Source: Rhodocyclales bacterium
Lineage (GTDB): Bacteria; Pseudomonadota; Gammaproteobacteria; Burkholderiales; Rhodocyclaceae
Assembly (NCBI GenBank): GCA_016183655.1
Contig: JACPEH010000008.1
Location: 310,001-374,000, forward strand
Direction: 5' to 3'
Length of the DNA: 64,000 nucleotides
This document shows positions 1,429 through 27,464 of this stretch, in pieces (within the stretch, counting starts at the first letter, position 1; each line of letters opens with the position of its first letter). The notes beneath the pieces were generated by a model that worked only from the letters and a program-made list of their open reading frames with translations, was not told where the DNA came from and made no database searches. The position numbers and the translations under genes were made by a program.

Positions 1429-1635
1429 TCAGCCGGCGTCGAAGCCGGCATCCTCGATCGCCGCCCGCAGCCGGGCGACGGAGACCTGCGCCGGATCGAA
1501 GCGCACGCGCGCCTCGCCGGCGCCCAGCGTCACCGCCACGTCGGCGACCCCGGGCAGCGCCTGCAAGGCACCGCCGACGCCCTTGACGCACCCCTGGCAG
1601 CTCATGCCGCCGACCTTGATGACGATCTCTTCCAT
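1429..1635 (-). CDS. Heavy-metal-associated (HMA/CopZ-like) domain protein
   Basis: MEEIVIKVGGMSCQGCVKGVGGALQALPGV...; GMSCQGC metal-binding motif. Confidence 0.88.
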   Translation of the reverse strand: MEEIVIKVGGMSCQGCVKGVGGALQALPGVADVAVTLGAGEARVRFDPAQVSVARLRAAIEDAGFDAG

Positions 1636-1638
1636 GAT

Positions 1639-1871
1639 CCTAGAAACCGCAGTTGAACGCGCCCGCCGGTGCGCCCAGGCTGGTGTCTGGCACGAAGCGA
1701 CGACGCGGCAGGCTCCCGCCTGCAAGGAGGAGCGACAAAGCCAGGCGCCGGCCTGGGTGTGCCGGCGGGCGCGTAGCGGACTCACCCAGCGGGTGATCCT
1801 GGTCGAAGGCGGTAAACTCAATGTCCATGCGGCGTTCCCAATGCAATCAGCGGTCAACTGCGGTTTCTAGG
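1639..1871. mobile_element. MITE-like non-autonomous element A (233 bp, 18-bp perfect TIR, 5-bp TSD ATGAT)
   Basis: CCTAGAAACCGCAGTTGA at 1639-1656, exact reverse complement at 1854-1871; direct repeat ATGAT at 1634-1638 and 1872-1876; internal imperfect inverted repeat 1657-1680/1751-1774 (21/24). Confidence 0.85.
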
Positions 1872-1881
1872 ATGATGTTCC

Positions 1882-4800
1882 TCACTGCGTGACGACGAAT
1901 GGCTGGCGCGCCAGCAGCCCGGCGAAATCCGCGGCCGGCACCGGCTTGCTGAAATGATAGCCCTGCACCGCGTGGCACCCCTGGCGGCGCAGCATGTCGA
2001 GCTGCTCGGCGGTCTCCACGCCCTCGGCGATGACCTGCAGGCGCAGGCTCTGCCCCATCGAGATGACAGTGCTGGCGATCGCCCAGTCGTCGGCGTCGGT
2101 GACGATGTCGCGGACGAAGCTCTGGTCGATCTTCAGCTTGTCGATCGGGAAGCGCTTCAGGTAGGAGAGGCTGGAGTAGCCGGTGCCGAAATCGTCGATC
2201 GCCAACTGCACGCCCATCGCCGACAGCTGGCGCAGCGTCTGCACCGTCGCCTCGGCATCCTCCATGACGATGCTCTCGGTCAGCTCCAGCTCCAGATGCT
2301 CGGCCGGCAGCCCGGTCAGCTGCAGGATGCCGGCAATCGCCTCGTCGAAGCGCTTCTGGCGGAACTGCGCCGACGAGATGTTCACCGCGACGCTGATCGG
2401 CGGCAGGCCGCCGGCCCGCCATTCGGCGGCCTGCCGGCAGGCTTCCTTGAGCACCCAGGCGCCGATCGGCACGATCAGGCCGCTGGCCTCGGCGATCGGC
2501 ACGAAACGGGCGGGCGAGATCATCCCCAGCTGCGGGTGCTGCCAGCGGATCAGCGCCTCGGCGCCGATGATGCGGCCGCTGCCGAGGTCGATCTGCGGCT
2601 GGTAGTGCAGCACCAGCTCATGCCGTTCGAGGGCGACGCGTAGGCTGTTCTCCAGCATCAGCCGCTCCAGCGCCGCCTCGTTCATCTCGCGGGCGAAGAA
2701 CTGGTAGGCGTTGCGACCGCTTTCCTTGGCCCGGTACATCGCCGTGTCGGCGTGCTTCAGCAGCGTCTCGAAGTCCTCGCCGTCCTGCGGGAACAGGCTG
2801 ATGCCGATCGACGGCGTCACCGTCAGCAGGTGGCCGTCGGTCATGAACGACTGCGACACCGCCTTGAGGATCTTGCGCGCGACGCTGGCGGTGCCCTCGA
2901 TGCTGGTCTCGGCGCAGACGACGACGAACTCGTCGCCGCCCAGCCGCGCCAGCGTGTCGATCTTGCGCACGCAGCCGGTCATCCGCTGCGCCACCTCGCA
3001 CAGCAGCTGGTCGCCGGTGAAGTGGCCGAGCGAATCGTTGATCGTCTTGAAGTGGTCGAGGTCGATGAACAGCAGCGAGGCCAGCGTGCCTTCGCGCCGG
3101 GCCAGCGCCAGCACCTGGTCGACGCGGTCCTGCAGCAGCGTGCGGTTGGGCAGCCGGGTCAGCGGGTCGTAGTAGGCCAGCTGGCGGATGCGCGCCTCGG
3201 CGGCATGGCGCTCGGAGATGTCCGACGAGATGCCGATGTAGTTGATGATGCGGCCTTCGACATCGCGGTAGGCGCTGATCGTCAGCCAGGCGGGGAACAC
3301 CTCGCCGTTCTTGCGCCGGTTCCACAGCTCGCCCTGCCAGACGCCGTCGCGGTCGATCGCTTCCCACATCGCGGCGTAGAACTCTGGCGGCTGCCGCCCG
3401 GAGCTGAGGAAGTTCGGCTTCTGGCCGACCGCTTCCTCGCGGCTGAAGCCGGTGACGCGGGTGAACGCCGGGTTGACGGTGATGATGCGGCGCTCGGCGT
3501 CGGTGATCAGGATCACTTCCTCGCCGACGTCGAACACCCGCTGCGCCAGGCGCAGCCCCTCCTCCGCCCGCCGCCGCGCGGAGATGTCGCGGAAGATCGC
3601 CTGCAGCTGCTTGCGGCCGGCGTTCTCGATGACGCTGGTGCTGACCTCGACCGGCACGTCCTCGCCGTCGGCGTTGCGGATGCGCATCTCCTCGGGCGCG
3701 CCGCCGCCGCTGATGATGTGCCGGCGCAGCTCGGCCTCGTGCCGCGCGCGCCGGTCGGGCGGGAAGATGTCCACCGACGGCAGCCGCAACAGCTTCTCGC
3801 GCGGCCGCCGGAACAGTATTTCGGCGGCGATGTTGGCCTCGACGATGGTTCCCGTCTCGCCGTCGATGACGATGATCGCGTCCTGCGCCGACTCGAACAG
3901 CCCGCGGTAGCGGTTACGCGACTCGACGATCTGGTCCTCGACCAGGCGCTGCGCGGTCAGGTCGAAGACCGTGCCGACCGAGGCCGGCGCGCCGCTGAAG
4001 GTCGCCGGCATGCCCATGATGGCGATCGGGAACTGGCTGCCGTCCTTGCGCACGCCGGTCAGCTCGTAGGGAAAACCCGGTTCGCCGGCAGCCCGCCGCC
4101 GCATCTGCTCGCGCAGCCAGTCGTGCTGCTCGGGCGCGACGATATCGAGCGGCCCAATCGCCAGCAGCTCCTCCTCGCTGTAGCCGAAGTAGTTGGCCAG
4201 CCGCGGGTTCACATAGACGAAGCGCATGTCCTGCAGCATGAAGATGCCCACCTGCGCCGCCCGCATGATGCCGCTGTACTTCGCCTCGCTCTCGCGCAGC
4301 GCGCTTTCCTGCGCGATGCGTTGCGAGATGTCGCGCTGGATGCCGAAGATGCCGAGCACGCGCCCGGCTTCGTCGAGATCCGCCAGCAGCTGCATCTCGA
4401 CCGCGCAGACGACGCCGGGACACGGCACCAGCTCGATCGTGGCGAGGCTACTTTTCGCCAGCAGGCAGTCGGCGAGCGCCTGCCGCCAGGCTTCCGGCGC
4501 CCGCGCCGGCACGGCGTCGAGCGTGGCGCCGGAAAACGCCGCCGCCGTCCGCCCGCATTGCGCGGCGAACGCTTCGTTGACGCGCAGGAAGTGCAGGCTG
4601 TCGAGCCAGGCCGTGGCGCCGTCGCACGGCAGCGGCGCGGCGAAACGCAGCACGAAGCAGCCATCGAGCGACTGCGCGAAGAAGTCGCCGAGCAGGCGCG
4701 CACTTTCCTGCAGCGACTCCTCGGCCCGCCTGCGCTCGGTGATGTCGGTGGTGATACCGAAGACGGCGACCGGCCGGCCGTCGGCGTCGGCTTCGACGGT

Positions 4801-5151
4801 CACCGCGTTGCTGAACCAGGCCAGTTTCCCGTCCGCCAGGCGGAGCGGAAATTCGACGTGCGTCGGCGTCTGCCGCCCCGGCGCAGCCGCCGCGACGACG
4901 CGGAAGTGATCTATGCAGCGCGCATAGTCGTCGGCCGGCATGCGTTCGCGGAGCACCGCCAGGCCGCGCTGGCGCAGCTCGGCCAGCGGCGCGCCGAGCA
5001 GTTGCTCGGCGTTGGCGCTGACGTAGTCGTAGGCGTCGGTGAGCAGGTTGGCGCGATAGACGATGTGCTCGGCGCAGCCGAGGATTTCGCGCAGCATGTC
5101 GCCGCCGTCGGCCGACGGCGGGACCTCCTGTGCGCGACGAGCTTCGTTCAT
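1882..5151 (-). CDS. Multi-PAS GGDEF-EAL protein (diguanylate cyclase/phosphodiesterase)
   Basis: Several PAS/PAC segments, [31 protein letters not shown]; start MNEARRAQ with ATGA overlap to the upstream ATPase stop. Confidence 0.9.
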
Positions 5152-7613
5152 GACGCCCTTTCTCCGTGCGTTCCCTGCGGCTGCCAGCGTTTCAGCAGCA
5201 GCGAATTGGAGACCACCGATACCGAACTCAGCGCCATCGCCGCCCCGGCGACGACCGGGTTGAGCAGGCCGAGCGCCGCCAGCGGAATGCCAAGGACATT
5301 GTAGATGAAGGCGAAGAACAGGTTCTGCCGGATTTTGCCGAGCGTCGCCCGCGACAGCAGGATGGCGTCGGCGACGCCCTTCAGGTCGCTGCCGATCAGC
5401 GTCAGGTCGGCGGCCTCGATCGCCGCGTCGGAGCCGGCGCCGATGGCGAAGCCGACGTCGGCGGCGGCCAGCGCCGGCGCGTCGTTGATGCCGTCGCCGA
5501 CCATCGCCACGCAGCGGCCGGCGCCCTTCAGCGCGTTGACCTCGGCGGCCTTGTCGCCGGGCAGGATGCCGGCGCGGAAGTCGTCGATGCCGGCGGCGCG
5601 CGCCACCGCCGCGGCGGTGACCGCGTTGTCGCCGGTGAGCATGACGACCTGCAGGCCCATCGCCCGCAGCCGCGCCACCGCCGCCACCGACCCCGGCCGC
5701 AGCGGGTCGGCGATGGCCAGCAAGGCCAGCAGGCGGCCGCCCTCGGCCAGCGCGACGACGGTCTTGCCCTCGCCCTGCAGGCGCTGCAGCTCGTCGCGCC
5801 GCGTCACCGCGTCGGCGGCCCACGCCGCCGCGCCGAGACGCAGGCTGCGGCCGTCGACGACGCCTTCCACCCCCTTGCCGGGAATCGCCTGGAAACCGCT
5901 TACCGCGGGCAGGGTGATGCCGGCCGCGGCGGCCCGTTCGAGCACCGCACGCGCCAGCGGATGTTCGGAGCCCTGCTCCAGCGCCGCGGCCAGGCGCAGC
6001 GCGGTCGCCTCGTCGATGCCGTCGACGATCAGGTCGGTGACCTCCGGTTCGCCGCGCGTCAGCGTGCCGGTCTTGTCGACGGCGAGCACGCCGATCCGTT
6101 CGGCGCGTTCGAGGGCCTCGGCATTCTTCACCAGGATGCCGGCGGCGGCGCCGCGGCCGGTGCCGACCATGATCGCCGTCGGCGTCGCCAGCCCGAGCGC
6201 GCAGGGACAGGCGATGACGAGCACGGCGACGGCGTCGATCAGCGCCTCGGCGAGATCGCCGGCGAACAGCCACCAGCCGGCGAAGGTCAGGAGCGCGACG
6301 AAGCAGACGACGGGAACGAAGATCGCCGAGATGCGGTCGGCGAGCCGCTGCACCGGCGCCTTCGAACCCTGTGCCTCGGCCACCAGCCGGATGATGCCGG
6401 CCAGCAGCGTGTGCTCGCCGACGCCGGTGGCGCGGCAGCGCAGCTGGCCGAGCGCGTTCTGCGTCGCGGCGAAGACGCGGCTGCCGGCGGCCTTCGCCAC
6501 CGGCATGCTCTCGCCGGTAAGCATCGCCTCGTTGACGCTGGAAGCGCCGTCGAGGACCAGGCCGTCGACCGGCACGCTCTCGCCGGGGCGGACGATGAAG
6601 ACGTCGCCGGGCAGCAGCGAATCGGCCGCCACCTCGACCAGCTGGCCGTCGCGCTCGATGCGCGCGGTGCGCGGCTGCAGCCGGATCAGCGCCTCGATCG
6701 CCGCCGTGGTGCCGGCCTTGGCGCGCGCTTCGAGCAGCTTGCCCATCAGCACCAGCGTGATCACCGCCGCCGAGGCCTCGAAATAGACGTGGCGATGCTC
6801 GAAGCCGAGGACCGTGACCACCGCCGAAAAGGCCCAGGCCATGCTGGTGCCGAGCGCGACCAGCACGTCCATGTTGGCGCCGCTCCAGCCGCCGCCGCGC
6901 AGCGCCTTCCAGCCGCCCTCATAGAAACGCCAGCCGATCCAGAACTGCACCGGCGTCGCCAGCGCGAGCTGCAGCCAGCGCGGGATCGGGTCGGCCGCAT
7001 GGCCGCCGGCATCGCTGCCGAACATCCACAGCATCTGCAGCAGCAGCGGCAAGGTCAGTGCCGCCGCAACGTAGAAGCGGCGAAGCTCGGCGCGATAGGC
7101 GGCGATGCGGCGCGCCTTCTCCTCGGCACGCGAACGGTCGTCGGCGACGCGTGCCGAGAAGCCGGCTTTTTCCACGGCAGCGATCAGCTCGGCCGGCGCC
7201 GCCCGGCCGGGAACGTAGCGGATGCGCGCGCGCTCGGCGGCGAGGTTGACGCTGGCCTCGACGCCGTCGATCCGGCGCAGCACCTTCTCGATGCGCGCGG
7301 CGCAGGCGGCGCAGGTCATGCCGCCGATCGCCAGTTCGACGGTCTGCGGCGGCACGGAAAAGCCGGCGCGTTCGATCGCCGCGACCACCTGCGCCGGCGC
7401 GGTTGCATCGCCGGCGACGCGGACGCGCGCCCGTTCGGCCGCCAGATTGACGTCGGCCTCGACACCGGGCAGGCGCTTGAGCACCTTCTCGATGCGCGCC
7501 GCGCAGGCGGCACAGGTCATGCCGCCGATCGGCAGGTCGAGCTGGCGGGACAGCCCCGGGTTGGTCGGATCGTTCATGGATTGGGTGATGGGCTCGTGGA
7601 TCGACTCGCTCAT
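5148..7613 (-). CDS. copA: Copper-translocating P-type ATPase (CopA/CcoI-like) with two N-terminal HMA domains
   Basis: Two [15 protein letters not shown] motifs, [30 protein letters not shown]. Confidence 0.93.
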
Positions 7614-8287
7614 GCGCCGCCGGCTCCGGCAGCGAGACGCCAGGCGCCAAGCAACCCCCACAGCCCGAAGCCGGCGACCACCGCGCCGGCGACGCCGCGC
7701 AGCCATGCCTGCCGGACGAAGCGGCGCAGGCGGGCGAGCAGCAGGCCGGCGAGCAGCAGGTTGGGTAGCGTCCCGGCGCCGAAGGCGAGCATCAGCAAGG
7801 CGCCCTGCACCGGCGAGCCGGCGGTCAGTGCGGTGGCCAGCGCGCTATAGACCAGGCCGCAGGGCAGCCAGCCCCAGAGCAGGCCGAGCGGAAAGGCGCG
7901 GGCCGCGGTGGTGGCCGGCAGGAAGCGGCGGGTCAGCGGCTGGATGCGCCGCCACAGGCGCTGGCCGAGGCGCTCGGTGAAGGCCAGCGCGCGCGTGACG
8001 CCGACCAGATAGAGACCGAGCGCGATCAACATCAGGCTGGCGACGACCTGCAGCGCGAGACGCAGCGGCAGCTGGCCGGAGAGCGCCAGCGCGCCGCCGA
8101 CAGCGCCGACCAGTGCGCCGGCCAGCCCGTAGGAAACGATCCGCCCGAGATTGTAGGCGAGGTGCAGCGACAGCCGCGGCGGACCGCCCATCGACAGCGC
8201 ACCGACGATGCCGCCGCACATGCCGACGCAGTGCGTGCCGCCGAGCAGACCGACGAGGAACAGCGCGAAATAACCGGAATCGGGCAT
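7610..8287 (-). CDS. Sulfite exporter TauE/SafE-type membrane protein
   Basis: [20 protein letters not shown]..., [13 protein letters not shown]; adjacent to Cu-ATPase and hemN as in cbb3-maturation neighbourhoods. Confidence 0.8.
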
Positions 8288-26951: not shown

Positions 26952-27244
26952 GGCGTGTTCACAGTAGATTCATGGGCGCGACGATGTCTGCGTGGGATGT
27001 CCCCCAAGGGGATTTCCTGCGGGGCACAGCGCAAGGCGCGGTGGCGCCGCTTGGCTGGTGCCAGGCAAGCCGCCGCAACGCCGCGATGCGCCCACGCAGA
27101 CATCGTCCCGGAGGGTTGCTGGGCAAAGGCGGCGTCTGCTTCGTTGCACGGCTTGCCCGCACATCAGTGCGGGCGGTGCCGCGCGCCTCGCATCCACCGC
27201 CTTTGCGCAGCAACGCGCTCCACGAATCTGCTGTGAACACGCCC
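26951..27244. mobile_element. MITE-like non-autonomous element B (294 bp, 21-bp TIR 20/21, TA target duplication)
   Basis: gggcgtgttcacagtagattc (26951-26971) vs gaatctgctgtgaacacgccc (27224-27244); TA at 26949-26950 and 27245-27246; two internal stem-loops. Confidence 0.87.
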
Positions 27245-27464
27245 TAAGCACAAACCGCTACGGCCACCCGGAGACGTCCGGGCGGCATTCCCGACACCCG
27301 CCGATTAGCTCACGGCGGGATGCAAAATGCGCCCGGCCGATGCCGAGCCGGCACCGGCGAAGTTCGTTTGTGCGCCGCACAAAAATCCGTCGAAAATCGA
27401 CCGGCAACTTCGCTAAGCCAGCGATTTCAAAGCTTTTGCAGCGCCACTCCGGCCGCAATACACA

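Follow-up and report, generated by a model that had tools for sequence, protein, structure and literature searches.

What is the short sequence that sits exactly at the start of a CopZ-like gene in this bacterial genome, how did it arrive there, and what may it have done to the gene that it abuts? The window analysed here (the whole stretch of DNA, 64,000 nucleotides) had been read, in an original prediction, as holding a MITE-like element of 233 bp with 18-bp perfect terminal inverted repeats (TIRs) and 5-bp ATGAT repeats, and our own reading of the sequence agrees with that description. The element, its target site duplication (TSD), and its parts are as follows.

1639–1871, + strand: non-autonomous mobile element (putative IS1380-type MITE), 233 bp, with TIRs, a TSD, three copies in its own genome, and homologues in relatives
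1639–1656, + strand: left TIR, CCTAGAAACCGCAGTTGA, 18 bp, whose arms co-vary within copies
1854–1871, − strand: right TIR, the perfect inverse of the left TIR over 18 bp
1634–1638, no strand: TSD copy 1, ATGAT, overlapping the HMA start codon; the family target is WTNAW
1872–1876, no strand: TSD copy 2, ATGAT, read from the sequence
1657–1775, + strand: long imperfect hairpin, conserved, with co-varying stems and sequence-conserved internal loops CGACGAC / GGAGGAG; the hairpin covariance model R1 matches 1657–1796 with 133 bits
1781–1796, + strand: small hairpin TCACCC...GGGTGA, from alignments A3 and A4
1797–1849, + strand: spacer ahead of the right end, nearly fixed in length (about 53 bp) and variable in sequence, from alignment A3
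1640–1846, − strand: internal 68-codon ORF, its frame without conservation, judged non-coding

The ends of the element read CCTAG...CTAGG and are flanked by a WTNAW duplication, and CCTAGAAACCGCAGTTGA-type TIR matches occur twice in the window, compared with 0.06 expected in shuffles (up to 3 mismatches allowed). The internal inverted repeat, previously put at 20 bp or more, spans 35 nt (1657–1691 with 1740–1774; 83% complementary) and is paired almost without break in the predicted + strand RNA fold. The ORF of about 68 codons that had been pointed out does exist, but other copies do not preserve its frame: their lengths fall in all three residues modulo 3, the frame is broken in about half of them, and a coding role was rejected. 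The 233 bp hold no transposase, this unconserved frame being the sole notable ORF.

The genes around the insertion are listed below.

1432–1635, − strand: HMA-domain, CopZ-like gene, its start codon abutting the element (Pfam HMA, 5.3e-17; NCBIfam CopZ models below cut-offs)
1882–5070, − strand: PAS-GGDEF-EAL gene upstream of the insertion (Pfam EAL, 1.5e-78; GGDEF, 1.7e-49); its start is not fixed and the upper bound is approximate
5151–7706, − strand: P-type ATPase with HMA domains, flanking gene
299–1360, − strand: selD-like AIRS protein, flanking gene

Since the CopZ matches of the HMA protein fall below the NCBIfam cut-offs, “CopZ-like” is a fair name for this small, copper-chaperone-like product and “CopZ” an unproven one. 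The insertion lies exactly at the start codon of this gene, as had been claimed: the ATGAT repeats flank the element, and the joined flanks restore the gene start, reading CAGTGAGGAACATCATGGAAGAG on the minus strand, where, just as had been reconstructed, the EAL stop codon TGA overlaps the Shine-Dalgarno (SD) sequence GAGGA 5 nt before the ATG. The further idea that the duplication rebuilt the start codon holds for the A and the T, which come from the HMA-proximal TSD copy, but not for the G, which lies just outside the TSD. Empty sites, which the original prediction proposed to seek in related genomes, were observed directly: in three genomes of the same genus (G001, G002, and G006), the HMA and EAL genes are neighbours, the element is absent, and an SD-like purine-rich stretch lies a few bases ahead of the HMA ATG. 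Because these orthologous sites are empty, the insertion is derived and lineage-specific. Several other relatives have the HMA gene adjoining the P-ATPase gene instead of the EAL gene.

Further copies had been expected in the host and in related genomes, and these too were observed directly. Two more full-length copies are present in the own genome, at C15:172287-172520 (97% identity, TSD ATTAT) and C23:120283-120516 (92% identity, TSD TTCAA), and 30 of 200 relatives have matches to the element, with about 22 copies in one complete genome (G025). Mechanical delimitation by TIR pair plus TSD gave about 80 distinct elements, with a main class of 231–237 bp, and the target rule can be read directly from their TSDs, which are overwhelmingly WTNAW. 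The hairpin model R1 found matches in 28 of 151 genomes of the own family (E ≤ 1e-9, up to 21 copies per genome) and in 36 of 369 genomes of the class (E ≤ 1e-6, many of them full length), and elements from outside the family (L259, L263, L264, L265, and L279) measure 235–237 bp and have WTNAW-like duplications next to CCT TIRs. The first reading had supposed a smaller element family than this one, which is scattered through many beta- and gamma-proteobacteria. Plasmids carry it as well (one copy on a Polaromonas plasmid and one on a conjugative Caballeronia plasmid); a search of phage sequences for the element gave zero matches, and TIR matches on viral contigs, considered as possible elements, looked like isolated matches only. 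With its TIRs, TSD, dispersed copies, empty sites, and lack of an own transposase, the feature is supported as a MITE; empty sites, other copies, and matching TIRs elsewhere, whose absence had been named beforehand as speaking against this reading, are all present.

The position on a start codon is explained by target choice, with no special mechanism, because WTNAW shares bases with ATGA/TCAT and with the stop triplets TAA and TGA. The Caballeronia plasmid copy sits at the stop codons of two converging genes, between them, and several other copies are located on stop codons; these sites were surveyed by simple ORF calling, which is rough (overlapping ORFs abound in GC-rich DNA), and only exact stop-codon coincidences were counted.

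Copies of other sizes were also recovered. Four larger ones (L134, L140, L111, and L147; 304–444 bp) carry additional DNA within the hairpin or the spacer and keep both TIRs and matching TSDs, an apparent sign that the element tolerates such additions; two 134-bp copies (L142 and L153) are without most of the hairpin, with TIRs kept and duplications near-perfect or perfect. The own genome (G000) additionally hosts a second MITE family (L038 and L041–L048), mostly 166 bp long and different in its interior, with related TIRs (CCTATTTTCCGCAGTTGG / CCTAAAAACCGCAGTTGG) and WTNAW-type duplications, at sites that include C6:207557, C13:4070, C17:53398, C22:88545, C22:126786, and C27:59065.

Which transposase moves the element? 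The best candidate is one of the IS1380 family, which is probably the mobiliser; we infer this assignment, as no autonomous element with the element’s own ends was found. The transposase family is read from in-register TIRs and a shared target. TIRs of an IS1380 subgroup (such as CCCAGATTCCGCAATAGA) begin with CC, as do those of the element, and align with CCTAGAAACCGCAGTTGA ungapped from the first base and in register, with partial identity (13 of 18 positions at most); in public genomes, all 31 exact 5-bp TSDs of this subgroup read NTNAW, and 28 are strict WTNAW. L081 (NCBIfam transpos_IS1380), a member of IS1380 that stands further off and comes from the same GTDB family, has the TIR CCCAAATTCCGCGATTGA, identical to that of the element at 12 of 18 positions when compared by eye, and TCACCTATCGGGTGA directly ahead of its transposase frame. 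The latter is of the same type as the small hairpin at 1781–1796, and about 0.3 Mb of IS loci contained one such palindrome, which is at most suggestive of kinship with the element. Few relatives were found of L081, the IS1380 element with the closest TIR. Another IS1380 subgroup, common in the own family (L064, L065, L068–L070, and L072), has the TIR CCCGGATATTTCAC / CCCGCATTTCTCAC and duplicates 4 bp (CTAG/CTAA), and IS1380 hence holds at least two target rules.

Instead, some other DDE transposase might move the MITE, its likeness to IS1380 in TIR and target having arisen by convergence, and the TIR match of at most 13/18 would fit such a history, as would the want of an autonomous partner with identical ends. 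The original prediction had suggested a search for a full-length IS with the same TIR, and none was found in the own genome, in the 200 relatives, or in G025. A Pfam PF13701 search of the own genome (88% complete) found no IS1380 transposase; none with matching TIRs was found among the 200 relatives, whose IS1380 elements have other TIRs; and in the complete genome G025, the pairs from the TIR search spanned a MITE length for nearly every copy and an IS length for none. Draft genomes and sampling limit the weight of this absence. Against convergence, the TIRs align ungapped from the first base, the duplication is in both groups one of 5 bp at WTNAW, and the IS1380 subgroup with TSDs of 4 bp departs from this in TIR as well as target; we therefore consider a transposase from outside IS1380 unlikely and retain IS1380 as the preferred source.

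The most interesting trait of the element, absent from the first reading, is a strand-specific hairpin that is conserved class-wide. Across 28 divergent copies that were aligned, the consensus fold comprises a closing stem from both TIRs, the long hairpin (about 1657–1775), and then a small palindrome TCACC...GGTGA. Compensatory double changes were seen in 36 of 59 pairs of this alignment, with a covariation score of 0.427 (0.159 ± 0.008 when shuffled and at most 0.11 when slid) and pairing cells at 97% (83% in shuffles and 27–40% with the partner slid), all counted on the same alignment from which the structure was derived. The inner hairpin is conserved in sequence without co-variation, and CGACGAC lies opposite GGAGGAG, giving, as read from alignment and fold, two tandem G.A/A.G mismatches between C-G pairs. 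On the + strand, the window copy folds with a z of −11.8, compared with −5.9 on the − strand; the + strand is the more stable in 25 of the 28 copies; and among pairs predicted from both strands, G.U (39) outnumbers A.C (8). Given this excess of G.U over A.C and the better folding of the + strand, the constrained molecule would be + strand RNA or single-stranded DNA, and the conserved fold looks like a structured RNA or single-stranded DNA hairpin of that strand. Most likely, the hairpin domain is selected to fold on the + strand and functions in RNA form (or as single-stranded DNA), whether for the element itself or for transcripts of its host. Rfam gave no match at E ≤ 1 for 1300–2300 and none that was convincing in 20 related loci.

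The covariation could also come from quasi-palindrome correction, in which one arm is rewritten from the other by template switching at replication, with no selection on the fold. The TIR arms do co-vary within copies (mismatches 1.0 within versus 2.75 between), as expected from such copying or, equally, from tracking a shared transposase. Template switching would, however, erase both the tandem G.A loops and the G.U pairs, which persist, and G.U is far commoner than A.C; correction of this kind is thus an improbable source of the pattern, and selection on the fold remains the better reading. Whether the selected molecule is RNA is a closer matter. Tandem G.A mismatches are stable in DNA also, the strand asymmetry fits RNA and single-stranded DNA alike, and no promoter-like site was found in 1500–2000, so that a DNA hairpin at a replication fork or in a transposition intermediate deserves some weight. 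Conserved G.U pairs favour RNA, on the other hand, and single-stranded hairpins are not known from IS1380-type DDE transposition, which leaves the DNA version somewhat unlikely and an RNA the favoured molecule.

Does this hairpin belong to the one family only? Since wrong-strand matches of true copies score 33–37 bits, R1 matches below about 40 bits were not taken as evidence. Matches of 50–60 bits occur in repeats with other ends, namely ATACCCGTCACGGACAGG-type repeats (L282 and L283) and GGGCCTGTTAACAC-type double hairpins (L285, L286, and L287), and the strict core motif is present in L286 and L287, compared with 0 occurrences in 3.84 Mb of shuffled sequence. It is possible, and we put it forward tentatively, that several mobile repeat types with unrelated ends, presumably moved by different transposases, have taken up one working module of RNA or single-stranded DNA, namely the hairpin core (CAAGGCGCGACGA ... 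GAGGAGCAACGC) and its tandem G.A pairs, and that this module is spread across the GTDB Gammaproteobacteria. Among the papers found, none prints the core sequences or describes the family. Short palindromic elements with ATACCC-type ends and a MITE-like hairpin inside were also noted (L282, L283, and L288). The window itself contains, just after a stop codon at 26956–27250, a palindromic double hairpin of about 290 bp with ends GGGCGTGTTCACAG...CTGTGAACACGCCC, which resembles the L285–L287 repeats; its match at 27114 was rejected as a family member, as it reaches 33 bits only, no higher than wrong-strand scores, and its kinship is unproven.

What, then, might the insertion mean for the HMA gene? 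With the element in place, TTTCTAGGATC directly precedes the HMA ATG, the native SD and the upstream EAL stop are 238 bp away from the gene, and AGGA now stands before the ATG at an unusually short distance of 2 nt. Altered HMA expression through the insertion is plausible, and the likeliest outcome, judged from these sequence features, would be uncoupled and reduced translation. An insertion neutral for HMA, in which the ATG beside CTAGGATC starts translation equally well or the gene is dispensable, is possible, if less probable to us: the ATG and reading frame are intact, and no stop interrupts the frame within the element as far as 1857, whereas the distant SD, the crowded AGGA, and the very stable hairpin within the message all argue against neutrality. 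The HMA frame is open through much of the element from a TTG at 1857 (1640–1857, − strand), and an amino-terminally extended (fused) product is therefore possible. Neither promoter-like nor terminator-like sites were found near the insertion (the promoter scan covered 1500–2000).

Mechanistically, we propose that an IS1380-family transposase acting in trans cuts and inserts the MITE, recognising TIRs of the CCTRGAAACCKCAGTTGR form and duplicating 5 bp at WTNAW. In this lineage, a copy entered the ATGAT that overlaps the HMA start codon, moving the native SD and EAL stop 238 bp off while the duplication preserved the ATG; translational coupling would be lost, with HMA translation now proceeding from the weak CTAGGATC-ATG context or from a start inside the element. 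The element itself is kept at near-constant length, and its + strand hairpin would work as an RNA or single-stranded DNA module. Taken as a whole, a MITE of a family new to the resources consulted, moved by an IS1380-type transposase, at the HMA start, and with a selected hairpin, is in our view a well-favoured explanation. Elements that are small and lack a transposase tend to be dismissed as passive debris; in this one, the length and the single-strand fold were held class-wide even as sequence identity fell to about 70%. Should the core function as RNA, it would be an unrecognised structured RNA travelling on mobile elements into operons, often at start or stop codons, and the copZ-like insertion, for which empty-site relatives exist, offers a clean natural test of what such a landing does to translation.

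Among known systems, the IS1380 family (NCBIfam NF033539; the subgroup of L078, L226, and L081) has CC-starting TIRs in register and the 5-bp TSD at WTNAW in common with the element; IS1380 elements differ in having a transposase and no long hairpin, with only partial TIR identity, and the long hairpin was absent from the autonomous IS1380 loci tested (202 kb; best R1 match 14.9 bits). The Correia/NEMIS elements of Neisseria are likewise small, TIR-ended, and transposase-free, and their transcripts form a long stem-loop; they are reported to change the fate of mRNA via RNase III (PMC2229807, PMC10969869). Correia elements have TA termini, whereas the present element has CCTAG/CTAGG ends, a WTNAW duplication, and an interior in which a long hairpin, its loops conserved, is joined by a small one. 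Duplications of 5 bp that are AT-rich are known from the bcr1 repeats. These repeats, of the Bacillus cereus group, are short and have a conserved predicted secondary structure (listed in PMC2267715); they resemble the element in both respects, as likened by description only, and their host phylum differs. ERIC, CIR, and QMITE2 are short repeats whose transcripts form long stems (PMC2229807, PMC10969869), a property shared with the element, and they differ from it in termini, duplications, and host taxa. MITEs with structured transcripts are a known kind, and what appear new here are the family, its spread, and the shared core.
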